A stretch of DNA of 64,000 nt, from positions 1,389,001 through 1,453,000 of the forward strand of contig BSYQ01000006.1 in NCBI GenBank assembly GCA_030272585.1, written 5' to 3'. Below are positions 10,301 through 49,782 of the stretch, one piece after another; position 1 is the first letter of the stretch; every line of letters begins with the position of its first letter. Below the pieces are notes generated by a model that worked only from the letters and a program-made list of their open reading frames with translations, did no database searches and was not told the DNA's origin. The translations under genes were made by a program, and so were the position numbers. This DNA comes from Bryopsis sp. KO-2023. Lineage: Eukaryota > Chlorophyta > Ulvophyceae > Bryopsidales > Bryopsidaceae.

Positions 10301-13300
10301 CAAATTCAACCCTGTCTGGATGCACATTCTTTACAAACCAAGCCCATCTTGGAGGGGGGGCAGTATGTGCTCAGGTATTCGAATGATTTTTCTCACAAAA
10401 TGAGATGAAAATCACAAGTCAAAGCTTTACAACTAAATGCGTCTGACAAGTTATCAGTCTGAGTTTTTGGAGCTTTTCTGCTATGTCTGTCTTTTGTGTG
10501 CAGGATGGGGATTTGGGATCGACTGGACGAAACTCAGAAGGGGGGCTGTACATTGCCATGAAAGATATAAAATTTTCGGGAAATAGAGTGGGAAGCGTTG
10601 AAGAGGGCGCTCTCGTGTTGAGTGTTGAGGGAGAAGGTGGGGCTGTCAGACTGAAAGGCCAAGGAGTCATTGCAGACATCCATGGGTGCAGTTTCTCTAG
10701 AAACGTTGCCGGATCTGGAGGAGCATTGCATTTGGTAGATGTGCATAAAGCAGAAATTCGAGACTCGATTGTGACCCTGAATGCCGCCCTAAGGGGGGGA
10801 GGGCTAGCAGTCATTGACACAGAATCTCTTATCAAGCTAGCGCAAGTTGCTTTTCTGAATAATTCAGCAAGCTGGGGTGGTGGAGTGTCAGCTACAGCAA
10901 CCATGATCAAACGAACAGTGATAACAGAATTCTCTGATGTTCAGTTTCTGGGAAACACTGCTGCCAAAGGTGGAGCAGGTTTGGAGGTCAAAGGAGTGAA
11001 ACTGCATTGCAGGGGTTGTGGATTTCGTCAAAACGTTGTTGAAAATGTTAAAAGGGGTGAGCTCGGGGACGGTGGTGGCATCCTGGCTGCCTCAGGGGCA
11101 CTTCTCACCCTTCATGACTGCGCAGTAAAAGAATGCTTTGCGGCAGGGTCAGGGGGAGGGATATATGCACAGGACGCGGTGTTGAAAGGGGCCAATCTGA
11201 CGGTTTCAGGAAATGAGGCTGGCGAAAATGGAGGAGGGATGGCTGCTCATTTCAGCTCTTTGTTCACACCCAGAGGGGATGCCGCTCCTCTGTGGGAGTG
11301 CACTCTTTGTTCCATTGACAATAACAAGGGCAAAGTCGGAGGTGAGTTTCAAGTGTCTCTGCTGATGGGGTAGCTTGTGTGAAAATGCATTGCATATGTG
11401 TGCTGATATGTTTTTCACATGTAGGTGGTTTTCACCTTCTCACTGTTGCTGGATCAATTCAAGATTGCAAAGCTCTGGCCATTCTCGGAGAGGGATCGTT
11501 CCGCAATGGCTCCTCTCCCAAAGAGGAGCAGAACTTCTTCCAGCTTCTGGAAGAGTGCAGCTCGACACCCACCTTCTCAGACTTGCTGGCGAGCCGCCAT
11601 GTTCTCTCTAATGACGCCACCTTCAAGGGGAATTTTGCAGAGATTTTTGCCTCGGATGTATTCTCAAACGACATTTCTGTGCTGAGGATGTGCTGTGGAG
11701 AAGAATGCTTTGACGGACTAAATTTGAAAAATGCACCCCAGAGTTGCCACGCCAATGGTGAAGAGGGAGGTCAGGTAGAGTCCATATCTGTTGGCTCTTC
11801 GCCAGACAGCGTAATCATTTCGCCTGCGCAAATTCTCAGCCACTCCAGTGCCGAAGTGCTTCCCCCTATCGAAGTAAAAGTGTTGGATGCCTTTGGACGA
11901 ACTGCCCCCGAAAACGTTACTCTGAAAATGCAATCAACAGCAGCAGGAGTGGAGCTGTATGGAAACCCTGTCACCAGCAATGGGGTCTTGATGAGTGGCT
12001 CTTTCGTTGCGAGCGGGGTTATTCTCAGGGCCTTGCCTGGCTCGTACAATGTCACCTTTGAGTTCACTCCAAAGGAGCGTGCCAGTACCTCTTTGGTGGA
12101 GCACATGATGGTGGTGATTCGAGAGTGTGTAGCTGGGGAGGTGTCTAAACAGAATGGAAAGCGCTGTGACATTTGTGGGGAAGATTTCTTCAGTTTTGAT
12201 CCCACGGATGCTGAGTGCCGTCTTTGTCCTCTTGAAAGAGCAAAATGTTCAGGGGCGATTCTGGTGCCGCTTGAGGGGCTATGGCATGCACACGCCCGGG
12301 CAACTGAGGTCCATGCTTGCCTGGCCAAGGAAGGTTGCACCTACACAAACAGAACCGTTGCTTTGGAGGAGGCCAGCAAGAAATTGACGAAAGGGCAGAC
12401 TCTCCGCTACATAGATTTCTACCCCCAATGCGAAGAGGTACCCAGGGTTGATGTTTCTAACACGCGAGTAGGTCAGGCCTTGCATGTGTAGAACCTATGT
12501 TTCAGCTGCGTGTATTTTCTATGTCGCACAATTCAGGGCTACATGGGAGTGCTGTGCGGGAGCTGCCAGCTTTCACACGGGAAACTTCGATCGCATGAAT
12601 GTGTGCAATGTCGAGGACAAACAGCAGCAATTCTTTTCTTCAGCCTGGTGGCGCTGGCCTTGATGATTCTGTCATTCATTTTCATGAAGAGTGCAGGAAG
12701 CTACTCAAGAGAACTCAACAATCAAGCAGGTGGTGTGCCTACTGTTGTGGTTTCCCCACCAACACAATCACAGTCTCAAGATGGCTTTAATCTGGAAGCA
12801 TTCCTGTCTGGACAAGCACCAGTTCGAGAAAATGTGCTGGAGAAGTCGATGCCCGGAACCGTTGGCCAAAGAGAGAGGCGGGCATCTGATGTATTCAAGG
12901 TGAGCACGAAAACAGCTTTTGACGAATGTGGAGGGTTTTTGATGCGTTGGAATTAATTAGAGTGGCCCTGGTGCAGATCCTGGTCAATTTCCTCCAAGTT
13001 ACAGGATCGGCGGCTGCGATAAACACTGACTGGACAAAGGGGATGCTGGCGTTGCTCACCAGTCTGGGTGAGACGAGTCTGTGTTTGGTGTTTCAATTGA
13101 ACGAAATCAAGGTTCGCAACCGTACAAACAGGTGTTGGGATGATTCGGCAAGAGGAGACACTCCACGAAAAATGAATGAGTATTGAATTGTGTAGGTCTG
13201 ATGTCGGGTGTGGCGGACAACAATGCCTTTTTCGCGTCAGAGTGTGCGTTTTCGACGGATGCGCCGCCGCGATCCGTCAAGGCCACGATCCTGTTCGTTT

Positions 13301-14312
13301 TCTTTCCTGGTGTTGTGTGGGCTGCATTTTCAACATTGTATTGCATCTCCTCTTTGAAAAAAGAGAATCCATTTGAGTACATCAAGCTGCGTTCGTTTGC
13401 GGCGCTGTTGGCTGTCCTCCACGCATCCTATTTGAGGTAAGCCCAAGGCGGGTTGGTTGCAGAATACCATTTCGAGTGTGAACTAGAATGAATTACATTT
13501 TTGTGCTTGGGGGCAGTGTTACGAGAGTGCTGGTGCGCATTTTTTATTGCGTCCGAGCTGAGCCATTGGATGGGTTGTTCTGGGCGGAGGACACCAGTGT
13601 GGTGTGTTATCACGGATCGCACGCCTTCCTGACCTGGTTGGTTGGCTTTCCATTTTTGGTGTTGATTGCCTTCGGATTCCCTGGGTGGCTCCTCTTTGTT
13701 TTGACGCGGAACAAGCAAAATCTCAGCAATCAGGACATCGCCGAGCGTTACGGTTTCTTCTACCGATCCTACAAGGAGGAGGCGGTTGTTTGGGAAGTGG
13801 TCACCCTGGCGAGAAAAGCCCTGCTTTCCACCATCGTCGTGTTCGCACGACCTCTTGGAGAGGATTTGCAAGGCGACATGGCACTGTTCGTCATGTTCGT
13901 GTCGATAATCCTGCAAGTTCGTTTCCAGCCATTTCAAGATGCGAAACTGAACGATATGGAGTTGGCTTCCCTCATCTTATCCAGTCTCGCCTTCATGATC
14001 GGAAACATGGCGAACACAGCAGCAGTGACGGACAGCGCGAACGTCGGGATGTCTGTCGTTTTCATTGGAGCGGTACTGGTCTACTTTTTGTACATGTTCA
14101 AACAGTTTTTGGATGCTGGGATGAAAGGGCTCGACAGATGGGTGCGGAAAGTGCACCCTTCGACCCCGCAGAAAACGAGCACGTGGGAAACGGTGAAAAT
14201 TGCGAAAACCATTATCGTGAACCTCTCGAAGAAAGGAATGGAAGGGTTTGCTGGTAGACTTTCTGATTCTCGTGCGTGGCTCATCAGCAAGGTCGGTGGA
14301 AAACGAGCGTGA
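1397..14312 (+). CDS. Giant Pmp-repeat membrane protein, left copy (24 exons, one with an in-frame stop)
   Basis: Exons: 1397-1457, 1573-1840, 2113-2506, 2609-2968, 3176-3322, 3842-4132, 4762-4902, 5340-5624, 5895-6050, 6381-6662, 6894-7034, 7290-7565, 7817-7972, 8374-8658, 8861-9016, 9310-9693, 9868-10029, 10213-10374, 10504-11341, 11425-12437, 12537-12899, 12977-13067, 13196-13436, 13517-14312; 2482 codons plus stop. The protein starts with a signal peptide (MWSEFLLLVLLAAAGA). Then come many chlamydial-Pmp-type units (Asn-rich F..N plus GGA[IV]), expected to form a right-handed beta-helix stalk. A Cys-rich part (CDICGE; GYMGVLCGSC) follows, and then a C-terminal domain of several membrane helices. 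Exons 5-15 are symmetric (phase 0-0) cassettes of two alternating types. Exon 13 carries TAA at codon 964, so full-length product needs exon 13 to be skipped. The family is known from algae and protists as large surface or receptor-like proteins. Ligand and function are unknown. Confidence 0.8.
7817..7972 (+). pseudogene. Nonsense-bearing cassette exon 13 of the left Pmp-like gene
   Basis: This is a B-type cassette exon, nearly identical to exon 9 (5895-6050), with intact splice sites (TTGCAG before, GTGAGC after). Codon 30 is TAA at 7904-7906, where exon 9 and the right-copy counterparts have CAA. The exon is 156 nt and phase 0-0, so skipping it leaves the downstream frame open. Confidence 0.8.
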
Positions 14313-14525
14313 AATGATCCATATTAATCAGAATGAAATTTTTGCCATCAGTTCAAATCAACAGGAGCTGTTTCCATCCCGCTTTTTTTTTCCTTTGCTT
14401 AGCCTCAAGGTTTTTTTTGTTCCGAAATGGAAGCTGCTAGAAGGTGATCGTTTTCAGTACAAACCGTTTTTCGTGAGTTTTAAGCAGATTTGTATAGTAT
14501 ACTGGGTTCTGATAGATTTTTTATA

Positions 14526-14531
14526 AATAAA
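14526..14531 (+). terminator. Polyadenylation signal of the left Pmp-like gene
   Basis: AATAAA lies about 215 bases after the stop codon. The matching position in the inverted copy (31081-31086, minus strand) is also AATAAA, so the signal is conserved between the copies. Confidence 0.55.
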
Positions 14532-14932
14532 GAATTTGTTTGGTATGTCAATCAATCAATACCATTACTCCTTGTACGGAAAAGAGGGGATACATTTGTT
14601 CATTACGTTCAGTAGGTCTAGTAGGGGCTATTTGGGCCCTACCAGTGAGGGTCTCGATATTTAGTTTTTTTTAAATGTTTTTTTGACTTGTTTTGTATCA
14701 ACAGTATTCAATCAAACGAATGGACAACTATTATTGTGTGTAAAAATAAGCGCACTTTTTGAATGTTCTGGGTGGGGAGTTTTTGTAGATGAACACTTAA
14801 AAATGTCTTGCGCAGTCGATTGATTACTTGCAACCTTTTCAATGCTTCAGTGTTTTCAAATCAGGCTTTAAAAAAATAACAATTCATAAATATAAACCAC
14901 AAAGGATGTGTTTCAACAGTGGAGCATGAATA

Positions 14933-23651: not shown

Positions 23652-25366
23652 TTAATTTCCCCCAACTGCCAAAGCTAAAAAAGAGCCCAGTAGTTCCCGT
23701 CCCCGCAGTGAATTTGTTAAGAAATCCCAATCCCAGTGTTCCGACTCCTTAAGTCTTTCTGAAAGTGAAATCCGATGTGCCCTAAAAGCCGGGCACTCCA
23801 TAAGTAAATGCCATCTAGATCCAATCACTCCCTCCTCACAATGTTCACACATCGCATTATCATTTATCCCTATTCTGTGAAGATATTCGTTAGTTGGGAA
23901 ATGACCACTAAGAAATCGAAGAGCACAAACAGTAGCCCAATGTGAAAGAGCCCTTGCCCACTGTAGATTAAACAAGAAAGAGGGAGTTTCCCCATTCACC
24001 AAGAGAAGCCCTGGATCTACTTGGGCAGACTGAGTGTCCCGGTCTCTGTAGTGTTTCCAGACCAGTCCCTTAATCAATGCAAGATTTGCTGGAAAATCCC
24101 ATTTAGCCAACAGTTCGCTTCCTTGTGCGGGAAACCAAACAGAGGCTGCCTTTGCTGCCTCATCCGCAGCGTCGTTTTCCTCCACTTCGCAGTGACTTGG
24201 TGTCCACACAAAAGTCACATTAGTGGTTGCACTCACCTCTCTTACCATGTGACGAACTTGCGTCACTGACTTGAGAACCCCTTTCGATCCTTTCAACGCC
24301 CGAAGTGCGCCTTGAGAATCGGAGACAATATTCAACTGTGCACAGGTCATTCCTTCCGCTTGAAACACAAATAACGCCAACTTAATCGCGGCAATCTCAG
24401 CGTCTGTGCTGCTCCCCAGTCCGTTGAGATTGGCCTGGAAAACTCGACCTGAGCTTTCGTTTCCTCGGAATAATATCGCGCTAGCGCCTGCCACTTGTTT
24501 CGTCACAGATCCATCTGTAAAAAACCAAAGGGTGTTCTCTGCCGAATCCCTCCTGAGATGACGTGCCCTCTCCATATTTTCCGCGCTCCGACCCAACTCC
24601 GCAATTGAAATTCGCGCTGGCAAGTCCATTGCCCACGGTGGTGAGTCAAACTGGGTCACACGATCGATATTATCCCACAAATGCCGCTCTACTGAAGCTC
24701 GCGAGAGTGCACGAACTTCTCTCTGTATCATATCTGAGAATCCACCATCACTCAGCCCACTTGGTGCCAAGTTTTTCCCGTGTTTCAGCGAATTACAACG
24801 ATGAAGAACCACCTGTCGACGGATTTCCAGATCACCCGGCAGCCAACCCACTGATCTAATTGCTTTACTTGTGCTCGTTGTTCGAAAAAGCCGACCAATT
24901 ACCATCGCACCCATGCGCAAAATTCTGTCAAGTTGCCGTAAAATGCCTCCATTTGCAGTCACCCCACACCATGCGACGACGCCATAAAAGAGTTTTTGGA
25001 CGACACACGCGTGGACAATCTTTGACAATTGTTCGGGATGGACCCCCCACCTTGCTCCACGGAGCTTCCGCAGTATCATCAAGCGGGTCATACACTCCTT
25101 CGAGGTTTTGTTAACATGATCTTTCCAAGACAGGCGTTCATCAAACCATACTCCCAAATACCTGAGTGTCGAGACTTTTGGAATTAGTTGGCCCTCCAAA
25201 TGCAAGTCGGCGGGAGAATCACATTGATTCCTCCTTGTAATCAACATCCAACAGCTCTTCTCCGGGGAAAATTCCAGCCCCCAATGTTTGCTCCAGCTCC
25301 CCACTGTGTGCAAGGCCTCATGTATGCACCTCCAACTAGTCTCATCATCAATCTCCACCCAAATGA

Positions 25367-25396
25367 CACTATGGGAAAACCCGCTCTGTGCGGGGT
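25367..25396 (+). repeat. Left terminal inverted repeat of the CACTA element
   Basis: It begins CACTATGGGAAAAC and ends CTCTGTGCGGGGT. It differs from the right terminal repeat at positions 7, 13 and 15 only. Target duplication TGA immediately precedes it. Confidence 0.9.
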
Positions 25397-25711
25397 TGGT
25401 CGAATCTCCGCCAAATATCGAAGAACGTCGAACTGACGAACTAAGACCCGAAACAGAACAGAAACGTATTAGGAACGGTCGGATGTACTTGGGTTCGACT
25501 CCCAGGCGTTCCAATCCCCTTAAAACCGGGGTCGCGAAAAAGTCGTCAGCGACTGGAATTCGCGACCCCGCACAGATGACTGTGCGGGGCTATAAATACC
25601 GCACAGGAGATCAACGCCGCACAGAGCCCTGTCAGTGACAGGCTGTCACATCCTTCGACGTCGTCAGACATGCGCATTACGACACGTGACTAAGGTTTTC
25701 AAACTCTTTCT

Positions 25712-28987: not shown

Positions 28988-29017
28988 ACCCCGCACAGAG
29001 CGCGATTTCCTATAGTG
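28988..29017 (-). repeat. Right terminal inverted repeat of the CACTA element
   Basis: Read on the minus strand it begins CACTATAGGAAATC and ends CTCTGTGCGGGGT. Target duplication TGA immediately follows it at 29018-29020. Confidence 0.9.
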
Positions 29018-29516
29018 TGAGGATATCATCCGCAAAGGCTGCAACTGAAACCGACTTGGTGAGGTCAACCAAGAGGGAATCTAAAAATATCCGAAATAGG
29101 AGAGGAGATAAGGGGGATCCTTGTGGTAACCCATGGGATAGATCCACTATTTCTTTACACCCTTCGACTTGAAGTGTGGCTTTCCTTTGTGTGAGGAAAG
29201 CTGTTACCCAAGCTATCAAGTGGGCAGGGAGCCCAATATGTTTCATACGCCAGAGGAGCGAAGAAATATCAATGTTGTCGTATGCACCCACAATATCTAA
29301 CGACACGACCGCTAGACCTTTTCGTTTCTTTAGAGCTGCCCCAGCAGCGGAAGCAAAGTGTTGAAGAGCATCAGATGTGGATTTCCCATACGAGAAACCA
29401 TATTGTGCCTTGCACCCATCACCCATAACATACACAATCCTATCCCGTACAATGTGTGAAAGTGTGAAAGTGTTTTAGAGAGAGGGTCTGGTTTTCTCGT
29501 TGACAAGAATTCTTAT

Positions 29517-30672: not shown

Positions 30673-31080
30673 GTGTCCCCCCTTTTTTTCATGCTCCCCT
30701 GTTGAAATACATCTTTTGTGGTTCATATTTATGAATTGTTTGTTTTTAAGCCTGATTTGAAAACACTTAAGCATTGAAAAGGTTGCAAGTAATCAATTGA
30801 CTGCACAAGACATTTTCAAGTGTTCATCTACAAAAACTCCCCACCCAGAACATTCAAAAAGTGCGCTTATTTTTACACACAATAATAGTTGTCCATTCGT
30901 TTGATTGAATACTGTTGATACAAAACATGTCAAAAAAAACATTAGAAAACAACAAATATCGAGACCCTCACTGGTAGGGCCCAAATAGCCCCTACTAAAC
31001 CTACTAAACGTAATGAACAAACATAATCCCTCATTTCCCTACAAGGAGTAATGGTATTGATTGACATACCAAACAAATCC

Positions 31081-31086
31081 TTTATT
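31081..31086 (-). terminator. Polyadenylation signal of the right Pmp-like gene
   Basis: AATAAA on the minus strand, about 200 bases after the stop codon at 31284. It is conserved with 14526-14531 in the other copy. Confidence 0.55.
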
Positions 31087-31283
31087 TATGAAAAGTCTAT
31101 CAGAACTCAGTATAGTATACAAATCTGCTTAACACACACACGAAAAACGGCTGTACTGAAAACAATCACCTTCTAGCAGGTTCCATTTCGGAACAAAAAA
31201 AAAACCTTGAGGCTAAGAAAGAAAAAAAAAGGGACGGAAACAGCTCCTGTTGATTTGAACTGATGGCAAAAATTTCTTTCTGA

Positions 31284-34200
31284 TTAATATGGATCATTTG
31301 ACGCTCGTTTCCCGCCGACCTTGCTGATCAGCCACGCACGAGCATCAGAAAGTCTACCAGCGAACCCCTCCATTCCTTTCTTCAAGAAGTTCACGATAAC
31401 ATTTTTCGCAATTTTCACCGTTTCCCACGTGGTCGATCTCTGCGGGGTCGAAGGGTGAACTTTCCGCACCCATCTGTCGAGCCCTTTCATCCCAGCATCA
31501 AAAAATTGTTTCGACATGTACAAAAAGTAGACCACCACGGCTCCAATGAAAACGACAGACATCCCGACGTTCGCGCTGTTGGTTACTGCGGCTCTGTTTG
31601 CCACGTTCCCGATCATGAAGGCCAGACTGGATAAAATCAGGGAAACGGACTCCATCTTGTTCAGTTTCTCGTCTTCGAAAGGTTGGAAGTTTAGCTGGAG
31701 GATAATCGACACAAACATAACGAAGAGTGCCATGTCGCCTTGCAAATCCTCTCCGAGAGGACGTGCGAACACAACGATGGTGGAAAGCAGGGCTTTTCTT
31801 GCAAGGATGACCACTTCCCAAACAACCGCCTCCTCCTTGTAGGATCGGTAGAAGAAACCGTAACGCTCGGCGATGTCCTGATTGCTGAGATTCTTCTTGT
31901 TCCGCGTCAAAACAAAGAGGAGCCACCCAGGGAATCCGAAGGCAATCAACACCAAGAATGGAAAGCCAACCAACCAGGTCAGGAAGGCGTGCGATCCGTG
32001 ATAGCACACCACACTCGTGTCCTCCGCCCAGAACAACCCATCCAATGGCCCAGCTCGGACACAATAGAAAATGCGCACCAGCACTCTTGTCACGCTGCCC
32101 CCAAGCACACAGGCACAATTCATTCTGGTCCACACTCGAAACGGTATTCTGCAACCAAGCCGCCTTCATCGACGTTAGTTGGCTTACCTCAAATAGGATG
32201 CGTGGAGGACAGCCAACAGCGCAGCAAAGGAGCGGAGCTTGATGTACTCAAATGGATTCTCTTTTTTCAACGAGGAGATGCAATACAATGCTGAAAATGC
32301 AGCCCACACAACACCAGGGAAAAAAACGAACAGGATTGTGGCCTTGACGGATCGCGGCGGCGCATTCGTCGAAAACGCACACTCGGACGCGAAAAAGCCA
32401 TTGTTGTCCGCCACACCCGACATCAGACCTACACAATTCAATAGTCATTAACATTTTTTGTAGTGCCTCCTCTTACTCTTGCCGAATCATTCCAACACCA
32501 TTTTGTACGGTTGCGAACCTTCATTTGGTTGAATTGAAACAGCAAACACAGACTCGTCTCACCCAGACTGGTGAGCAACGCCAGCATTCCCTTGGTCCAG
32601 TCAGTGTTGATCGCAGCCGCCGATCCTGTAACTTGGAGGAAATTGACCAGGATCTGCACCAGGGCCACTCTAATTAAATCCAACCCATCAAAAACCATGC
32701 ACTCAATGCAAATGCCATTTTCGTGCTCACCTTGAATACATCAGATGCCCGCCTCTCCCTTTGGCCAACGGTTCCGGGCATCGACTTCTCCAGCACATTT
32801 TCTCGAACTGGTGCTTGTCCAGACAGGAATGCTTCCAAATTAAAGCCATCTTGAGACTGTGATTGTGTTGGTGGGGAAACCACAACAGTAGGCACACCAC
32901 CTGCTTGATTGTTGAGTTCTCTTGAATAGCTCCCTGCACTCTTCATGAAAACGAATGACAGAATCATCAGGGCCAGTGCCACCAGGCTGAAGAAAAGAAT
33001 TGCTGCTGTTTGTCCTCGACATTGCACACATTCATGCGATCGAAGTTTCCCGTGTGAAAGCTGGCAGCTCCCGCACAGCACTCCCATGTAGCCCTGAATT
33101 GTGTGACATAGAAAATATATGCATATGAAACATAGGGTCTGTGCAAGCACATGCAAGCTTGCATGTTAGAAATATCAACCCTGGGTACCTCTTCGCATTG
33201 GGGGTAGGAATCCGTGAAGGGGAGAGTCCTTCCCGCTTTCGTCAGTTTCTTGATGGCCTGTTTCAAAGCAGTAGTCCTGTTTGTGTAGGTGCAACCTTCC
33301 TTGGCCAGGCACGCATGGACCTCAGTTGCTCGAGTGTTTGCATGCCAAAACCCCTGAAGTGGCACCAAAGTCGAGGCCGAGCATCTGGCTCTTTCAAGAG
33401 GGCAAATATGGCACTCATCATCAGTGGGGTCGAAACTGAAAAAGCCTTCCCCACAAATGTCACATCGCTTTCCATCCTGTCTGGACACCTCCCCAGCCAC
33501 GCACCCTCGAATCACCACCATCATGTGCTCCACCAAAGCGTTACTGGCACTCTCCTTTGGAGTGAACTCAAAGCTGACATTGTACGAGCCAGGCAAGGCC
33601 CTGAGAATAACCCCGCTCGCAACGAAAGAGCCACTCATCACGACCCCATTGCTGGTGACAGGGTTTCCATACAGCTCCACTCCTGGTGCTGTTGATTGCA
33701 TTTTTAGAGTAACGTTTTCGGGGGCAGTTCGTCCAAAGGCATCCAACACTTTGACTTCGATGGGGGGAAGCGCTTCGGCACTGGAGTGGCTGAGAATTTG
33801 CGCAGGCGAAATGATTACGCTGTCTGGCGAAGAGCCAACAGATATGGACTCTACCTGACCTCCCTCTTCACCATTGGCGTGGCAACTCTGTGGTGCATTT
33901 TTCAGATTCAGTCTGTCAAAGCATCGTTCTCCACAGCACATCCTCAGCACAGAAATGTCGTTGGAGAATACATCTGAGGCAAAAATCTCTGCAAAATTTC
34001 CCTTGAAGGTGGTGTCATTAGAGAGAACATGGCGGCTCGCCAGCAAGTCTGAGAATGTGGGTGTCGAGCTGCACTCTTCCAGAAGCTGGAAGAAGTTCTG
34101 CTCCTCTTTGGGAGAGGAGCCATTGCGGAACGATCCCTCTCCGAGAATGGCCAGAGCTTTGCAATCTTGAATTGATCCAGCAACAGTGAGAAGATGCAAA

Positions 34201-37200
34201 CCACCTACATGTGAAAAACACATCAGCACACATATGCAATGCATTTTCACAAAAGCTACCCCATCAGCACTAACACTTGAAAACTCACCTCCAACTTTGC
34301 CCTCGTTGTTTTCAATGGAACAAAGGGTGCACTCCCACAGAGGAGCGGCATCCCCTCTGGGTGTGAACAGAGAGCTGAAATGAGCAGCCATCCCTCCTCC
34401 ATTTTCACCAGCCACATTTTCTGAAACCGTCAGGTTGGACCCTTTCAACACCGCGTCCTGTGCATATATTCCTCCCCCTGACCCTCCCGCAAAGCATCCT
34501 GTCACTGTGCAGTCATGAAGGGTGAGTAGTGCCCCTGAGGTAGCCAGGATGCCACCACCGCCCCCGAGCTCACCCCTTTCAACATTTTCAACAACGTTCT
34601 TACGAAATCCACAACCCCTGCAATGCAGTTTCACTCCTTTGACCTCCAAACCTGCTCCACCTTTGGCAGCAGTGTTTCCCAGAAACTGAACATCAGAGAA
34701 TTCCGTTATCACTGTTCGTTTGAGCTTGGTTGCTGTAGCTGACACTCCACCACCCCAGCTTGCTGAATTATTCAAAAACACAACTCGCGCTAGCTTGATA
34801 AGAGATTCTGTGTCAATGACTGCGAACCCTCCCCCTCTTAAGGCGGCATTCAGGGTGACAATCGAGTCTCGAATTTCTGCTTTATGCACATCTGTCAAAT
34901 GCAATGCTCCTCCAGATCCGGCAACGTTTCCAGAAAAACTGCACCCATGGATGTCTGCAATGACTCCTTGGCCTTTCAGTCTGACAGCCCCACCTTCTCC
35001 CTCAACACTCAACACGAGAGCGCCCTCTCCAACGCTTCCCACTCTATTTCCCGAAAATTTCAAATCTTTCATGGCAATGTGCAGCCCCCCTTCTGAGTTT
35101 CGTCCAGTCGATCCCAAATCCCCATCCTGCACACAAAAGACAGACATAGCAGAGAAGCTCCAAAAACTCAAACTGATGACTTGTCAGACGCATGTAGTAG
35201 TTGTATTGCTGAGATTTGTTATTTTCAACTAAAGTTATGAGAGATACCATTCGAATACCTGAGCACATACTGCCCCCCCTCCAAGATGGGCTTGGTTTGT
35301 GAAGAATGTGCATCCAGCCAGGGTTGAATTGGCATCGCCTTCCACGAAAATGGCACCCCCAAGAGTGGAATTGTTGGAGACAAAGGTCAGATTTGTGATT
35401 TGAGCCTTTGGTTGGGGTCCCTGATGTTGGTGAAACACAAATTCAAAAAACCATCTCTCTCATAATTGGATGGACTTATCTTTAAAAAAGAAATCTCATT
35501 CGAATCGCACAAAAACAAAGGCAAAACCACCTTTGGTGGGTGGAGAACAGAAAGGTCTGAAATTTTTCTTCTTACCCCTATCCAAATCGCCCCACCATAG
35601 TCTCGGGCATGATTTTGAATGCAGTTTCCCCTGTCCATCTCAACTTCTGCACCAGAACTGGACACAGCTCCTCCACTGGCATTGGCAATGTTGACTTCAA
35701 AATCGGTATCCACAAGTCTCACTACAACTTCCTTGTCCTGCCAATAAAACTCAAATATCACTCTTTTAACTACCATAATAAAAACTTTTAACCCCTTGAA
35801 AAATACATGGTCAAATTTTGCTTTTTCACATATTTTAAGTGCTGGAGCAGGAACAGAACACATGCACTGAAAACCAATTCGAAGCCTTCCCAAAGAATCA
35901 GCTACACACCAGGGCAACGGCGCCTCCACTTTTCCAAGCTCTGTTCCCACGGAAAACAGATTTCTCAACAAACATTGTTGGCTTTTGGGTGGGCAATGTG
36001 GAATTTTGTGACAATGTTTCATAGATTGGTTCGGCCATAACTTCATCGATAAATGCCATAACTGCATCAACTGCAACAGCGCTGAAAGTGATTGCACCAC
36101 CAAAGAAAGCGGTGTTTTCTGTGAATCTCGAGTTGACAATGAAAGCCTCTGAACTGATCAACGCTATTGCCCCTCCGCCAGCAGATTCATGAATTAGCTT
36201 TCCTCCGTCCAAATCTAAGGGAGCCTCCCTTCCATAGGCCGTGTTGGTGGTAAAATTTGCATGAGTGGCGTTCAAAGTGGATTCCTTCACATCCATTGAA
36301 AACAAGTTTTTGTTCTTGGGTTTGGGGGTTCATCGAAACTTTTTGTGTAAACAACTACCTGAAAATTCCTGTGGATTTGAATCCAAGCGAAAAAGTACAG
36401 CTTTCACAATCAAGACATTCTCTGTGAATTACAATAGATGCTCATTCTTTTGGGAAAAAACGTGCTTAATTGGATCCGGACTTGCAAGCAAGCTCCTCCA
36501 TGAGAAAGTTATTTATACGTTCAAGCTTAGCTTGCCACCGAGCGTGGAAAGAAAAATGTAACTTAATCTTACTGCGAGATACAGTGCTCCGCCTCTCTTG
36601 GCTCGGTTTTTGATAAACTTGACTTCAAAAATACGGACTTGAGGGACGTTGAAAACATACACTCCCCCTCCTCTTTCGCGGTTACAATCATCACAGGTAT
36701 ATAGATCTTTTGTTTTCGCAGCAGAATCCTGCAATGGAATTTTTTTGTTCGCAACAGAACCCTGCAATGGAAACTATCAGATGCATTATATCATTAAAAA
36801 AAACCTAAGATTCACATTTCCCACCTACTTCCTCCTCTCCCCTAAAAGAAAAAAAGAAAAAAAAATGAATCGAGAATACCCGTAAGACAGCACTTTTCCG
36901 GCTTGCTTGTTTGCAATCTTCAAGGAACTACGATCCACGAGAGCACTCACAAAAACTCTGTCTCCCTCTGGACATATAGGCATTAAAATCTGGCTTGTAT
37001 TTTTGCAATCATGCTTACCTCACTGAGTAAACTCAGGGTATAATTTTCCCCACTGAAATTTTCCAGAAAAGCAGAGCCAGAGAGCGTCAATGAAGCAATC
37101 TCCCAACCATAGACAGCGCCTCCACGTACAGCAGCCTGGTTGATTCTGAAACTTGATTCATCAATGGAACACTTCAAATTTTCTCCAAACAGAGCCAATG

Positions 37201-40200
37201 CCCCCCCATCCGAATTGGTTAAGTTGCCAATAGCAGTGTTTCCTTCAAATGATGATGCCGTGATGTTCAGGGTTGCTTCCTCCAAGTCATCACTCTTCAA
37301 GCCAAAAAATGAAATGAATCATTTTCAGTGATCAATCCGTCTGCCACATGTGTTCCATCAAACACAAGCCCGAATTGCTAGCCTTGGAAATGAAAGTGAA
37401 CTTTCCAGAGAACTGAAAATAAATGAAAAAACAAAAAAACACCCCGAACTATGTATCCAATGGGACCTGACATGGAAAAAGGTTCCTCCATGAGGAAAAC
37501 AATATTTTACATGTTCCAAATTTGTCTTCCATGGATTTAAATTAAAAAATTGTAGACACTTCTTACTGCAAGGTACAGCGCCCCGCCTCGTTTGGCTCGA
37601 TTTTTGATAAAGCTGGATTCCACAATTGACGTATCAGCCACCCGAAACAAATAAACTCCGCCTCCTTTTGTCGCGGTTGATTTGTTTCCCATCTCCGAAG
37701 CATATTCCTGCAAGGCGTTCATATAGCTGATATGACTCATTTGGCTTTCTTTTTTTTTTAACTATTTGCCATTTTTCTGAATCTAATGCACAAGAGTAAT
37801 CAATTCCAAGAAACTGGCATCTTGGAAATGCAAAGTTCCTTTAGAAAGCTTCCAAAAACTATAAGCAAGCAAATATTAGTTTGCCTTTCAAAAGACCTGG
37901 GCCTAATGGTTTGATTGGTTGCGTGCGGCCAGGCTTACCTCAGTGGGTATATTCAGATCAATATTTGCCACAATAGGCAAATAGTTTTTCAGAAAAGAAG
38001 AGCCAGAAAGCTTCAATGAAGCAATCTCCCAACCATAAACAGCACCTCCAGCCACACCAGCATGGTTGGTTTTAAAAATCGATTCATCAATGGAACACTT
38101 CAAATTTTCTCCAAACAGAGCCAATGCCCCTCCATCCGAATGGGTTGAGTTTCCAATAGCAGTGTTTCCTTCAAATGATGATGCAGTGATGTTCAGGGTT
38201 GCTTCATCCAAGTCATCACTCTTCATCAAAATAAAAGAAATCAATCATTGCCAATCTAATGGATTGGCTTTGTAACGACCAATCCATCAGATGCAAGTAA
38301 AATAATTAATGCTTGAATTTCTGGAGCTCAGGCAAGGATGGTGTGGAAAATAGAGCAGGGGGCAACTAGTAAACGCCAAAACTTGGGTAGTCCAATGAAA
38401 AAGTGGAATTGAATTTAGGTTTGGAGCTGATAACATTGGAAATTCACCAAAAACCATTCTCACCCCTTTCTCACCCCGCTACAACTTATTCCAGCATTTA
38501 AAATCATGGCAAAAAAATTATTTGAATGAATAACTTTTTTGAGAAATTTTCATAAATCTAACGCATCAAAGACAAGATCCATGGTCTGCTTACATTCAGA
38601 AGTAGGCCACCGCCTCTTTTGGCAACGTTTTCGATAAACTTGACCTCAGAAATGATGACTTGACGGACCATTTCAGCATACACTCCCCCTCCTCTTTCAC
38701 GGTTACATGTACAGGTATATGGATCTTTTGTTTTCGCAGCAGAACCCTGCAATGGAAACTATCAGATGCATTATATCATTAAAAAAACCTAAGATTCACA
38801 TTCACGTCCCCCCACCTACTTCATCGTCTCCCCTAAAAAGAGAAAATAAAAATTGATAGTATTGTTAAGAAAGCCTTTTTCTGGCCTGATTTGTTTGCAA
38901 TTTTCAATAAACCACGATCCACGAGAGGATCCAAAAATCCCAAAAATCCAACCTTGGCTCCCTGTGGATATACAGGCATTCAAACCTGCCTTGGATTATT
39001 GATTGTGATTTGTCTTACCTCAGCAGGTAAATTCAGAGTACCATTGGATACACCCGGACCACAAATGTTTTGCAGAAAAGAAGAGCCAGAAAGCGTCAAT
39101 GAAGAAATCCCCCGACTGAAAACAGCACCCCCATCCACACCAGCATGATTGGTTTTAAAAATCGATTCATCAATGGAACACTTCAAATTTTCTCCAAACA
39201 GAGCCAGTCCTCCTCCATCTGAAAGGGTTGAGTTTCCAATAGCAGTGTTTCCTTCAAATGATGATGCCGTGATGTTCAGGGTTGCTTTCTCCAAGTCATC
39301 ACTCTTGCAGGCAAAGGAAGAAAGAAATGAATCATTGTCAGTGATCAATCCGTCTGCCACAAATGTTTCATAAAAAAACAAGGCCCGAATTGTTTGCCTC
39401 AGAAATGAAAGTGAACTGTAAACAAATTACACACACATAAAATATCACCCCCCACAAGCAAGTGGTGGCAAGTGGGGGGTCATTATATCTTCTTTACTTA
39501 GAAGATATAATCCTCCATGAGGAAAAACAATCTTTAACATGGTCAAACTTTGTCTTCCACAGAGTTTAAATGCAAAAAATTGTAGCGATCCTACTGTCAG
39601 AAACAGCGCCCCGCCTCTTTTGGCTCGGTTTTTGACAAAGCTGGATTCCACAACTGAGGTGTCAGCCACTCGAAACAAATAAACTCCACCTCCTTTTGTC
39701 AGACTAGAGTTGTTTCCCATCTCCGAAGTTGAACTCTGCAAGGGGTTCACATAGCATATATGACTCATTTGCTTTTGGGTTGAAACTGGATGCCATTTTT
39801 CCAGATATAATTGACGAGGACAACCATTCCCAGGAAACTGGCAACCCAGAATCCAACTTGTCATTGGAAAGGTACAAAAGAAATGCGAAAGATTTGATGG
39901 ATTCTTGACTGCAATCAGGCTTACCTCACTGGGTATACCCAGGGTATCATTTTCCCCACAAATGTTTTCCGGAAAAGAAGAGCCAAAGAGAGTCAATGAA
40001 GAAATCTCCAAGCCATAAACAGCACCTCCAGCCACACCAGCATGGTTGGTTTTAAAAATGGATTCATCAATGGAACACTTCAAATTTTCTCCAAACAGAG
40101 CCAATGCCCCTCCATCCGAATGGGTTGAGTTTCCAATAGCAGTGTTTCCTTCAAATGATGATGCAGTGATGTTCAGGGTTGCTTCAAGTAAAAGTATGAG

Positions 40201-42754
40201 TTAGATTTCTGGAACTTGGGCAAACATGGCTTCTAAATGAACTTTTTTTTTGGAAAAAAAAAGACAAGAGGGGTTAGGAAATGCCAAAACTTGGGCAAGC
40301 CGAGTGAAAATACAATTTAAATTGAAGTTTAGAGCACGAACTTATTCCAGCATTCAAAATAAATCAAAAAATATCCAAAAAATCCAAAAATATTTGATGA
40401 ATTAAACAAATTCCAACAAATTCCTATTAGAAATTTTCATAAATCTAATGCATCAAAAACAAGATCCATGGTCTACTTACATCCATAAGTAGCCCACCGC
40501 CTCTGTTGGCAAAGTTTTCGATAAATTTGACCTCAAAAATATGGACTTGAGGGACCTTGAAAACATACACTCCCCCTCCTCGTGTAAGGTCTTTTGTGTT
40601 TTTGGATTCCGCAGTCTGACCCTGAAGATCACATGGCTTTAATGTTGCAACATTCCTCAGAACGAAAACCGCATATACATCTGCGATAAAACAAAGACTA
40701 TCAGAGGGGCACCAGGGTGCTTGTTAAAAACACCAAGAAACCATGTTCATCAATCAACCACTTCCTCAAATTGTGAACAATATTTCTAGCAACCCTCACC
40801 TTCCTTTTTTTCTGGTCATTGAAGTGACCCACACGGTTTCCAAGAAATCTTGAGGTCACGATGTTCATTTCTTTTGATCCATTGACTAATATAGCCCCTC
40901 CAAGCACTCCAGCTTGGTTTTCAACAAAATTGCAGTCGTTCACTGTGGTCTCTGTTCCACGAACATACATAGCCCCTCCAATCACTCCAGCTTGGTTTTC
41001 AACAAAATTGCAGTCGTTCATTGTGGTCTCTGTTCCGTTAGAAACAATAGCGAGTGCACCCCCCAGTGGTAGAGAACCTCCAAGACTACCGTCTGCATGA
41101 TTCCTCATAAAATTACATCCAATCAATTCCAGGCCGGCCATGTTGGGGAGAAAGCTCTGAAAACAAGACACACCACAAGGAGCATTGCAAATTTAGATGT
41201 TCACACTCATAGGAACAAAGCAAATCCAAACTGTTTCCTCAAAGACTACTACATTTATTTAAAAAAATTACCTCGAAATAGATGGCGCCACCCTGGAAAG
41301 CAAAATTTCTTGTGAAATTATTACTTTGACTAGACAGTTCAGTTCCATTGATCGCATTGATGGCACCTCCATCGTTGACTGCTGAATTGTTGAGAAAGGT
41401 TGATCCAAAGATATCCACATTCAATTTCGGTCCAAGGAAAGCTATCCCTCCTCCTGTTCTCCAATTGCGGTCATTCTTATACTCGCCATAAACTCGATTT
41501 CCACTGAACGTGACAGCCTTTATGTTGACTTCAGACTCCTTCTCACCCTAACATCGAATCACATGCACTTGTATTAGTGTATTACCTTTGCAAAAAAAAA
41601 AGGCAACCGATAATTTTGAAGTGCTTGTGTTTGCTTACACACCGCAGCAAAGATTGCCCCTCCGTCATCAAAGGCCAGGTTTCCAATGAAGTCAGAATTT
41701 GACAAGGTCAGATTCGAGTTGTGCACGTAAATTGCTCCGCCTTGTTCAGAGGCATGGTTGTTTTCGAATAAAGAGTCCGCAACATCCACCACAGATGCAT
41801 CTTCTAAAGACATTGCACCACCATAAACCGCTGTGCTGTTCATTACCCTGGTATTCTCCATCCGGATGGTGGAATTAAATGCTGAAATGCATGCAGATCC
41901 AATAGTGTTTGAATTGTTTTCGAACAGTATGTCCCCCAAAGTCACATTTTGAGATTCTTTTACTCTTAGCAACCCTGATGCACTGTCCAGGTTGCACCCA
42001 ACAAAGGAGAACCCAGCAAGCAGCACATCATGGGACCTGGAAGAAAGAACATGATGGTCAACAGTTGGCTTCCAACTTCAATCAGATGGATATGATAATA
42101 GACACATGGAAAAATATTGCTTACTTTCCTCACCTGTCACCCTGATTTCTTCATGTTAAAAAGAAATCCCCCCCCATCAGATTCAGCCACATTCAATTCC
42201 AAAATCAAGGTAAACCTGTCGTCTACAGCATCTGTGGAAGCAATGCATGATTATGCAGTTTCCTAATGCAAACAAAAATCGTACCATCCCTCACTTTGTT
42301 ATGTCAATGATTGGCTGCGTGGTGTCGTTCAGACAGCGGATGGAGGTCCGCGATCCTTCGATTGAAACAGATCGGTTGATTTCAAGGGTGTCGTCGAGCC
42401 TCAATTCTGGAGAGGTGAATCGGACGGATGCGCGTTCAGGCACACAGTCCAAAACGTGCTGAACGCCTCCACCGATGGTCGCCAGTGCATCAGCATCCAC
42501 AAGTATCGAATCAGCAGATCGTGGAAGCGTTCGCACGTCCTCGCATCGCGCAGCCGTCTCGTCTGGAAAAAAAAGCAGGGGCTGCTGTTTCAGGCATCAA
42601 CACTGGTGCGGTACAAACTCAACGCATGTAAGCCGCATTTGCGATTGCGGAAACCTTATGGGACCCTTGTAAACAAGCAAGTGATTTGGTCACCCTGATC
42701 TTCTTTGGCCCCAGCGGCGGCCAGCAGCACAAGCAACAGAAATTCGCTCCACAT
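31284..42754 (-). CDS. Giant Pmp-repeat membrane protein, right copy (22 usable exons)
   Basis: Exons in transcript order: 42754-42694, 42562-42295, 42036-41643, 41547-41272, 41156-40800, 40621-40481, 39735-39595, 39303-39019, 38746-38594, 38220-37939, 37707-37567, 37294-37019, 36761-36573, 36284-35910, 35737-35576, 35420-35259, 35126-34289, 34204-33189, 33093-32731, 32653-32563, 32428-32188, 32094-31284; 2340 residues with no internal stop. Organisation is as in the left copy: signal peptide, Pmp repeats, Cys-rich part, multi-pass C-terminus. The last domain has several helices (LTWLVGFPFLVLIAFGFPGW; MALFVMFVSIIL) and ends in a basic tail. Differences: an extra exon with tandem 25-residue units (exon 5), one cassette exon with a lost 5' end (39925-40191, skipped here), and a doubled 3' splice site at exon 13 of this list. 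It appears to be the intact copy. Confidence 0.85.
39925..40191 (-). pseudogene. 5'-truncated A-type cassette exon in the right Pmp-like gene
   Basis: The exon body and donor (GAG then GTAAGC) match the other A-type exons. The first codons and the usual acceptor (TTGAAG before AGTGATGA) are gone, and an unrelated sequence runs directly into GAAGCAACCCTG. The nearest AG would put the exon in a frame that meets TGA at once. The upstream and downstream exons are phase 0, so leaving this one out preserves the frame. Confidence 0.65.
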
Positions 42755-45388: not shown

Positions 45389-46334
45389 TCAGAGGAGCAT
45401 TCTGTAGGTCTGGGCGGAGGCAGCGACCATGGCGTAGACCTGGACCTCGCAGAGAGTCAAGTACTCGGTATCGAAGATCTTGATGTTCACGTAACGACCA
45501 ACCATAGGGCACGAGTAACTTCTGGTCTCACCCGGACCCATCTTCTGTCCTGTGGCGCACCACTCATTCGGGTTGGAGCCCTGCTCGCTACCGACCTTGA
45601 TCTCGAAGTTGTGGAGGCGTTCCGAGCAGCAGTCGCCACGGTTGGTGATGACGACTTTCGTGATCTGGTAGGTGGCGCCCAGGTCAACTTGCCACCACGG
45701 GTTCTTCGTCTTCTTCGTGTGAGTGCAGGATTCCGAGGAGTAGCTCGTATCCGTATTGCCATCCACTGCCCGCTCTGGCTTACCCGAGAAGTCGATCGAA
45801 GACTGCTTGACCGGCTTGCCCTGGCTCACCAACTTCTCGACTGCTGTGGAAGCGGAGCACGCGCCGCCGTTCTGGAGAGCATACTCTTCGCCACCACAGC
45901 AACCCACCACATTCTTGTGATACCCGCTGTAGGCTGCGTTACCGTTGTATCCAGCCGCGCGGTTCTTCTTCAAACAGCCACTGAAACCGGATCCATTTGG
46001 ACCGAAAGAGAACCCATCGCAACCCTTGTTTGCCAGACACTCTGCCTTTGCTTGGTCCAAGCTTCCCCACTGGGTGCACTTGATATTGCCAGCCTTTCCA
46101 TTGGAGGCCTCAAGGTAGCCCTTTGGGATCTTGAAGAAGTCGCACGTTGGCAGGTCAGCCGCACCTGGAAGGCATACACACGAAACTATGGGTTCCAAAA
46201 AACGACGCTCGCATATCGAACGGACGGTCTAACCACTCTTATCGAAAAACAATCCTGCCGCAGCCCCAGTATCCATTGCTCTCACCAGTACAGATGGCGA
46301 GCGCAGCCAAAATGCAGATGACGGTAGGAGTCAT
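45389..46334 (-). CDS. Secreted PAN/apple-like plus F5/8C (discoidin/fucolectin) protein
   Basis: Exon 1 is 46334-46286 and exon 2 is 46164-45389, 274 residues. Exon 1 encodes a signal peptide (MTPTVICILAALAICTG). Residues about 28-105 form a PAN/WSC-like Cys module (QAKAECLANKGCDGFSFGPN). Residues about 120-262 form an F5/8 type C domain with the usual landmarks: AVDGNTDTSYSS, WWQVDLGATYQITKVVI, NRGDCC, GRYVNIKI and the closing LTLCEVQVYA. The NRGDCC/ERLHNFEI pattern is that of fucolectin (FTP-type) lectins, so an extracellular sugar-binding role, perhaps in wall, matrix or prey/symbiont recognition, is likely. The gene is clearly GC-richer than its flanks. A 393-codon ORF on the opposite strand is its shadow. 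Confidence 0.85.
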
Positions 46335-47260: not shown

Positions 47261-49782
47261 TTATCCTGACCAGACCTCTCGTTTTTTCCAAAACTTGCAG
47301 AACGAGAAGCAAGAAGGGGTTTGTACATCGGGAATCTTGAGCTCCTCCTGCTCGCTGGTGGATGAGGTCCAACGGTTTCTCTGGGACAGCGTTGCCAGGC
47401 GATTGGCTGTTTTTCGGTCCAATTTGGCATTGTTTTCTGCTAGCACCCTCAATGCAAACCCCTTCCAATGCTCCGAGAAGAGCCTCAAGCCAGGGACGGT
47501 CTTTTGCAACCAATGGGATGTGCCATCATAAGTCCCGATGTAGGACCCGAACGACAAGGTGCAGTTGCCGACATGCCACACGTCTGACATTCTCTTCCTT
47601 CCCTTCAAGAACACAACAAACGGTCCAGATCCACAGAATCCATTTCTCTAGTTATTAATTCATTCCTTTCCACTGAAACTTTCTGTCATGTATGAAGGGC
47701 TGTGTTTGAGGGAGGAGAGGCTTCGACCTTAGGCCAACATGATGCAACAATTCACTCTACGGAACAAGAAACCAGCCCCGAATCATAACCCTTCTACATT
47801 CTGACATTTTTTGGTTGAAATATTGTCCCAGATTTGGTTCAAATCTTAACAAGGAAGCACCCATTCTTGGTCAACTTGTAGAAGAAAAAGAAAAAACACT
47901 CGGTCCATATCAGGACAATGCACAGATCCTAGAATGGAAGATGCCCTATCACATAACGAACGTGCACAGGGAATATATCCTCACCTCAGTGTCGGAGTTG
48001 AACTCGATTCGACGATCCTTGACCCACTCCATTAACAGCTTCAAGTCGATAGCGTTCGCCAGACCTCGAAGGGATGTCGCCCCATACCCTAGACATGTCA
48101 GTCTGAGTAAGCTGGATGGCATTTCCAGGTTCCCCTTGTAAGCGGTGGCGAGGGGAAGGACATAACCCTCGGATATAGCTGGAGCAGGCACCAGATCAAA
48201 CCTGACCATAAATAACAATTACTTTCAAAACACCGTTGCAATCCGAATTGGGGAAGGGGAGGGGGTATATGTGAAACACCGCCTTCACGGAACCAATCAA
48301 CTTAATTCTCAGGTTCTCGTTATATTTTATTTTTTTGCAATTAAATAGTTTGCAATCGTTGGGGGTTTATCAACAAGATTCCCAATTGTCATAATTTGCC
48401 TTTGGCAAATTATTTTTTTTCCTACTCTTCTCTACATCATTTTATGTCCATCCATCAAACCATATTCCCCCCCCCCCCACCCCATGAAACCGTTTTTTTC
48501 CACTCACGTCACCAATTGAAAATCTGATTGAACGATAGAGCAATCGGTCGTATCGTCGGCCACCACCGAGGACCACCCCCTGAGGGAAGCTCCTATTCTT
48601 AATCCTTGCGAACAGAGTTCCCACACCAATTTTCCACTGGGCGATGGCAGAATCTTGAGGGTGCCTACCAAGAGAGATCCATCCCAGTGGACCTCCAGAA
48701 CGCTATGACTGACATTCGCGAAGCTTATCTGCTTGAAGTAAGGGGATGAGTAATTGGGGTGGTCCAGTTCTCCCACCGCCGTTCCACGTCGAATGTAGGA
48801 TTGATATTTCTTAACCTCTCTCTTCAGCAGCGCCTGAGCATCAAGAACAACCAGTATTAGTAAGCAAATTTGGAACTGAAAATATCCCGGGGAACATATA
48901 TTTACGGAGGGTTTCCCATTCAGATTTTCTTACTTTGAGAAAAAAAGAAAGTTATCGAAAAGAAAAAACCCAGCCCCTGCGCCCAAAAAACAAAAAGGAC
49001 TATTTCTTCACATGGGGTGCCTACGACTTCCACTGCACAAAAACTTAATTCTTTCTCGAAAAATAAGAAAACTCCAGTGAATTGTATGCATATTTTTTCC
49101 CTCTCTTTTTTTTAAGTCATTGATGGTGGTCAATCCACCTTTGGATATTTCCTCTTATTGGTCGTCACTGAATCTGCCTTTGCCAGAATTCCTTGCAAGA
49201 TTCGATGGCCACCATTACATTCAATCGAATCAGCATACAGGCGCTTCAACTGCAACAAAATAAACAACAGGCAAATTCTCACTCAGTCACCCCTTCCTCC
49301 CCAAAAAAGATAACTTGTTTTAAATTTCGATTAGTCAATCGATTTCCACCCCCTTTTTTTTTTAGGATGGAAGGGGAGGAGGGGAGGGTAATGGACCATT
49401 TTCAAAAAGCATGACTTTCCCTGCTGAAAGTTTTACATGAAACCTTTGGGTTCTGCGAATATATTCTATTGCATGGAATCGTTTCAAAATTCGCAGCGGA
49501 CATACGAATAGACCTAGAACGACGCCCGTCAGACGCAGCGACCATCCCGAGGTTCGCTCCGCGACGGAAAGGAACGTTCGATTAATGACGGAGCAAAACT
49601 TCAAAAGCTTCGAACGCCGTTGAAACGCGTCGAGGCTGCGACGTCGCGGCTCCAAATTCCCCCCGAACGAACGATGGGCGTTTGACCCGACACGAAATGC
49701 AACTCACTTGTTCTCGGGAGTAAAACGGACGCGCAGAGGAGCCCTGGCTGCTGGAGCCACCCTCCGTCACACACTCCACCAT
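47261..49782 (-). CDS. Phage prohead maturation protease-like protein (Peptidase S77/S80 type), 5 exons
   Basis: Exons: 49782-49708, 49249-49169, 48833-48508, 48201-47985, 47602-47261; 346 residues. The core matches tailed-phage prohead core proteases (T4 gp21-like): VLEREVKKY-type helix (LLKREVKKYQSYI, about 54-66), GELDHP (73-78), VSHSVLEVHWDG (93-104), LVGTLKILPSPSGK (107-120), GLRIGASLRGWSS (129-141) and DFQLVTFDLVPAPA (156-169). His77, Ser135 and Asp163 are the likely catalytic positions. The intron splitting DFQLV/TFDL is in phase 2 and restores the motif exactly, so the gene is truly spliced. The first 52 residues and the last exon (Trp/Lys-rich, about 113 residues) are outside the family core; the last exon is the least certain. 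An in-frame TAG directly precedes the chosen ATG. In phages the enzyme cleaves scaffold and capsid proteins. The host target is unknown. Confidence 0.8.

Follow-up and report, generated by a model that had tools for sequence, protein, structure and literature searches.

A spliced nuclear gene of the green alga Bryopsis sp. KO-2023 predicted to encode a homologue of T4-type phage prohead proteases with a C-terminal extension

A 64,000-nucleotide stretch of the Bryopsis sp. KO-2023 genome (hereafter the window; C6:1389001-1453000, C6 being contig BSYQ01000006.1) carries on its minus strand, from 49782 to 47261, a predicted five-exon gene for a 371-residue protein. Sequence comparison places residues 38-189 of this protein as homologous to T4-type prohead proteases, the family of T4 gp21. 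We consider it likely that a T4-type phage protease gene was transferred long ago and is now a host gene with a new C-terminal half; its origin in a phage by horizontal transfer, the age of that transfer, and its host function, activity, ring formation and self-activation are all things that we infer. To our knowledge, intact phage virion-assembly genes are not expected in eukaryotic nuclei. Phage-type RNA polymerase and helicase are known from organelles, and the present gene, if we read it correctly, would extend these phage-type parts to a virion-module enzyme in the nucleus, suggesting a eukaryote's takeover of a bacteriophage assembly gene. A prohead protease normally works within a capsid; one kept in a cell without a capsid would offer a test case for the release of a compartment-locked viral enzyme to a new job. 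Among the matches listed in a search of titles and abstract openings of the open-licence literature, none described a gene for a prohead protease, or one resembling gp21, in the nuclear DNA of a eukaryote.

Two public libraries recognized the domain. Pfam Peptidase_S77 (PF03420) matched residues 43-187 over profile positions 46-190 of 198 with 53.8 bits (E=2.3e-14; cut-off 27 bits), and PHROG 207, head maturation protease, matched residues 38-189 at E=2.5e-35. Both matches, the first well over its cut-off, confirm the T4 gp21-type (S77) homology that an initial annotation of this DNA had proposed. Exon 3 searched alone against the same Pfam family reached 24 bits (3e-5), under the cut-off. T4 gp21 (5jbl) was the sole sequence match in the PDB at E<=10 (E=4.3e-6) and also the top fold match of a structural model, which covered exon 3 only. 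The algal protein differs from T4 gp21 in that identity is about 25-29%, the nucleophile motif lacks its second serine and no prohead genes were found alongside.

Closer relatives were found among other phages. In a tblastn search, 1095 of 50,697 phage records matched at E<=1e-5, every one below 60% identity; the top-ranked record was Microcystis phage Mel-JY01 (41.6% identity over residues 42-189, 2e-28), whose protease is 48% identical to exon 3 and is encoded between a terminase gene and a T4-like capsid gene. At least 598 relatives were present among 600 candidate IMG/VR stretches, with identities of up to 44%; we kept 80, plus 5 from an earlier IMG/VR set. The proteases of Mel-JY01 and of IMG/VR loci such as L016, L018 and L020 align with about residues 21-189 at 41-43% identity and have in common with the algal protein the candidate catalytic residues and the motifs GELDHP, GxS-x-RG and DF-x-L...D-x-V. 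These phage proteases are mostly 200-246 residues long (L005, L007 and L106 are longer), are encoded by single open reading frames (ORFs) and, in annotated records, lie among head genes, whereas the algal gene is spliced and chromosomal, and its product carries about 180 additional residues. Ten proteins encoded near the protease in six IMG/VR loci comprised one (in L016) that matched portal families, one with a weak match of unknown function and eight with no PHROG match. The same phage loci held some features of their own. In Mel-JY01 (L006/L107), a gene annotated as ribosomal protein S21 lies in the head-gene cluster two genes past the protease, and L042 also seems, by eye, to have a comparable S21-like ORF close to its protease. 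In L007 (uncultured phage LR756508.1), the frame of the T4-type prohead protease is broken between GELDHP and the nucleophile motif, and the interruption, of about 330 in-frame residues, looks intein-like by eye.

The structure of the algal gene is predicted from its sequence. Exon 1 (49708..49782; residues 1-25) opens with an ATG right after a TAG, which is why we place the start there, and ends at a GTGAGT donor; it is the least certain of the exons. The protease core begins in exon 2 (49139..49249; residues 26-62) with an N-x-R-x-YP motif, continues through exon 3 (48508..48833), which holds the S77 domain's core, including both GELDHP and GASLRG, and ends at about residue 189 in exon 4 (47985..48201), where novel sequence follows. 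Exon 5 (47261..47647) encodes the C-terminal extension and the stop codon. The four introns, at 49250..49707, 48834..49138, 48202..48507 and 47648..47984 (458, 305, 306 and 337 nucleotides (nt) in turn), are all GT-AG, each has stops in all three frames, and joining the exons, all on the minus strand, gives a single open frame. A competing acceptor for intron 4 lies 45 nt into exon 5, with a better pyrimidine tract before it; its use would shorten the product to 356 residues. A codon model, trained on six stretches from elsewhere in the genome, scored exons 2-5 highest in the predicted frame (6.0, 20.4, 10.9 and 26.1 bits) and all four introns negative in every frame; exon 1 was not discriminated (3.8 versus 6.1 in another frame). 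The G+C content was 0.43-0.61 in exons, 0.37-0.47 in introns and 0.39-0.49 in 4-kb pieces of the window. The initial annotation had drawn a five-exon gene with exact coordinates; its product of 346 residues was 25 short of the 371 found here, and its residue numbers run ten lower than ours. The motifs that it had named, GELDHP, GAS-x-R and FQLVTFDLV, do stand in the spliced product, starting at residues 83, 143 and 167, and the last of them is, as it had said, rebuilt by splicing, with intron 3 falling between FQLVT and FDLV. The junction of exons 2 and 3 likewise restores YPK-ALLKREVKKYQ, which compares with YPKxILxREVKKYQ in phages.

Splicing also raised the match to a hidden Markov model (HMM) built from 93 viral rows. 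The score was 91.3 bits for exon 3, 122.9 for exons 2 and 3, 108.1 for exons 3 and 4, 140.1 for exons 2 to 4 and 138.2 for the whole protein. When all 2084 ORFs of 20 amino acids or more in the window were searched with this phage HMM, the sole listings at E<=10 were those of exon 3 (92.4 bits) and exon 2 (17.7 bits). Most rows of the HMM came from IMG/VR loci picked for their likeness to the algal protein, so that independent evidence comes from Pfam and PHROG. That the motifs were first spotted by eye is the one point in favour of a chance likeness in an unrelated gene. The E-values in the two public libraries speak against chance, as does the phage HMM, which listed none of 1000 shuffled versions of the protein, and we regard this explanation as exceedingly improbable.

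Three residues stand out as a candidate catalytic triad. In an alignment with T4 gp21, His87 (in GELDHP; codon 48759..48761, minus strand) corresponds to His85, Ser145, the candidate nucleophile (in GASLRG; 48585..48587, minus strand), to Ser140, and Asp173, the candidate third residue (in FDLV; 48195..48197, minus strand), to Asp168; each is invariant in all 93 viral rows. His85 and Ser140 are presumably the catalytic residues of gp21 by name. Compared with wild-type T4 gp21, the 5jbl construct has alanine at both of these positions and leucine for methionine at a third, and the two alanines fit a catalytic role for His85 and Ser140. The triad of the initial annotation (His77, Ser135 and Asp163) is thus kept under new numbers, as a set of residues whose part in catalysis is suggested by alignment.

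We placed the protein among its relatives in a tree built by maximum likelihood from 94 rows, one algal and 93 viral; the long or interrupted L005, L007 and L106, the cut-off pieces L062 and L076 and the duplicates L002, L045 and L089 were omitted. The algal protein fell inside a branch of 82 rows (support 100/98) that consists mostly of uncultured viruses, also includes Mel-JY01 and a Flavobacterium phage, and is separate from T4 and the marine cyanophages. Its end branch, 4.84 changes per column long, adjoins those of L037 and L042, a placement that is weakly supported (81/73), and a grouping with four marine cyanophages was not rejected (approximately unbiased test, p-AU 0.224). The tree points to a T4-type phage as the likeliest donor, and we regard an origin of the gene in such a phage as highly probable.

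Beyond the protease domain the protein appears to be new. The family match stops near residue 189, and residues 190-371, which carry a net charge of +10, had no detected relatives (best E 0.091). Exon 5 gave nothing over the cut-off in Pfam (best 0.15), a best E of 0.52 in the PDB and no confirmed relative among seven pattern matches in IMG/VR, and the whole protein searched against NCBIfam returned no relative of the exon 5 part. Two single-protein scans of GTDB genomes, each made of six short exact peptide patterns and run with no positive control, gave 0 of 37 and 0 of 25 confirmed pattern matches. The single-sequence model of exon 5 (predicted local distance difference test score 31.7) is meaningless. 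A hydropathy scan found no 19-residue window above 1.05 and no obvious membrane span. At the other end, about 40 residues precede the protease core, and residues 1-25 have a net charge of -1 and form no obvious organelle leader.

In the history that we propose, a T4-type prohead protease gene would have entered the algal nuclear genome long ago, acquired four spliceosomal introns as well as a C-terminal half that is new (about 180 residues), and been kept as a host gene with no detected second copy. The mechanism of gp21, as given in PMC9958956, involves a pentamer, an N-terminal block and self-cleavage. By analogy, the algal product would probably be a serine protease that is synthesized in an inactive form and assembles into a ring, and it may activate itself by removing its own N-terminal region, with an active site made up of Ser145, His87 and Asp173. 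Because the core and the leading stretch are kept, self-activation of the gp21 kind is plausible. Residues 190-371 are a candidate place for targeting or substrate choice, and the extension may either place the protein or select a new cellular substrate. The combination of five open exons and a very long branch is consistent with a gene retained in a different role, and retention by the host is in our judgement probable. A more detailed proposal is possible and considerably more doubtful: an exapted, active, self-activating ring protease with a new C-terminal targeting domain, conserved in an algal lineage, that cuts either cellular substrates or, prematurely, the scaffolds of a virus of the HK97 fold such as a mirusvirus. 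Action on virus scaffolds would make it a new type of antiviral protein.

The initial annotation had left two readings, domestication and a virus fossil, and the genome search favours the first. Searched against the genome at E<=1, the 371-residue product matched its own five exons only, and no second copy was found. The Mel-JY01 protease found exon 3 at 4.2e-20 and otherwise gave one match at E=0.999, which indicates that such a search can detect relatives this distant. With the Mel-JY01 capsid and large terminase proteins as queries there was no match at E<=1; Pfam searches of the genome for gp23, portal gp20 and Terminase_6N, the portal being sought by this route only, were also empty, and weigh little because the Pfam route missed the protease gene itself. 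The capsid-like genes that the initial annotation had thought worth seeking elsewhere in the assembly were not matched by the Mel-JY01 capsid, and the empty gp23 search adds little to this. Taken together, the lack of a second copy, the five intact exons and the unmatched phage virion proteins are better explained by domestication than by a viral fossil.

Two points of the initial annotation need qualifying. The first lies in the active site: it had stated that all candidate catalytic residues remain, which is true of the His, the Ser and the Asp. The second serine of GxSSRG, however, is Leu146 in the algal protein, a position that is serine in 91 and threonine in 2 of the 93 viral rows. With this serine lost, protease activity is a matter of inference, and we lean only slightly towards it. 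The second concerns the setting. Ordinary neighbours had been taken to favour domestication; the neighbours that we tested are indeed not viral-looking, yet neither they nor the introns by themselves exclude a virus, since introns are abundant in the virion genes of mirusviruses (PMC12768974).

The altered motif bears on whether the gene is a decaying relic of phage origin, or encodes a pseudoenzyme without protease function, an explanation that overlaps the domestication that we favour if an inactive protein has been kept. In 41 columns conserved in at least 90% of the 93 viral rows, the algal protein keeps 32 residues; its nine departures, the lost serine and eight others, include Leu146 for Ser, Ser150 for Gly and Ala179 for Ser, and together with the branch length of 4.84 they are what decay would leave. 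T4 gp21 itself, however, keeps 30 and departs in 11, and a Campylobacter phage row keeps 27 (the median row keeps 41). Judged by these columns, some accepted members of the family are at least as worn as the algal protein, which is nevertheless altered beside the nucleophile. Five in-frame open exons, GT-AG introns, host-like codon scores in exons 2-5 and the retained His, Ser and Asp also argue against decay, which we think unlikely.

The strongest rival to domestication of a phage gene is a fragment of an endogenous eukaryotic virus, for example a mirusvirus, captured with its introns. Mirusviruses resemble the present case in that they encode a capsid maturation protease of the Duplodnaviria kind (PMC10132985) and have introns in their virion genes, which are 2.7% of the genes and hold 29% of the introns; integrated mirusvirus genes have been reported from many eukaryotes (PMC12768974), and elements of putative mirusvirus origin from a green alga (PMC10675990). 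The same papers also supply differences, which bear on the comparison indirectly. Mirusvirus virion proteins are described as too diverged from those of Caudoviricetes for meaningful phylogeny (PMC10132985), whereas the algal protein, with identities of up to 41.6% to phage and up to 44% to IMG/VR proteases, branches among them; and in the green-algal elements the heliorhodopsin genes and their neighbours are reported to lack introns (PMC10675990). Moreover, the capsid and terminase of one phage, which are not mirusvirus queries, were unmatched in the genome, and 0 of 10 neighbouring ORFs had a PHROG match. Capture from such a virus therefore seems to us quite unlikely, and domestication of a T4-type phage gene remains the reading that we prefer.

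Contamination or a chimeric assembly, with phage DNA joined to an algal contig, is a further explanation, and we found no point in its support. The coding sequence is split by four predicted spliceosomal introns, none of the 1095 matching phage records reaches 60% identity, and the flanks carry an F5/8-type-C ORF and retrotransposon ORFs; this possibility is very improbable. In a Pfam scan of the ten nearby ORFs none looked viral, and four had no Pfam family. Directly downstream of the protease gene lies an ORF like an F5/8 type C (galactose-binding) lectin (45389-46228, minus strand). A large imperfect inverted duplication occupies 1484-14876 and 30740-42651, in pieces, with listed arms 77-95% complementary and about 16 kb between the innermost arms; its genes encode Chlamydia-PMP/beta-helix repeats, a Cys-rich part and, by eye, membrane spans. 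Pieces of a long interspersed nuclear element (LINE)-type retrotransposon lie between the two duplicated arms (23652-25589 and 29010-29474, both minus strand), one ORF matching RNase H, with zf-RVT just under the cut-off, and a separate ORF resembling a reverse transcriptase by eye. A Band_7 match at 56 kb in the window was under the cut-off.

The assembly as a whole comprises 91,088,769 bases in 28 contigs, of which C6 is at least 6.5 Mb long. The chlorophyll a/b-binding family gave 107 exon-level matches in it, and one member of the family, followed from the start codon, begins MASTIAASTFAGAALKSAK and by eye has no signal peptide; we take this lack to suggest a primary green plastid and hence a green alga. 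The host polyubiquitins examined have no residue between monomers, which makes a chlorarachniophyte seem an unlikely host. In addition, ten diverged ubiquitin-like matches, 36-66% identical to ubiquitin, lie within about 63 kb of another contig (C17:134903-198226).
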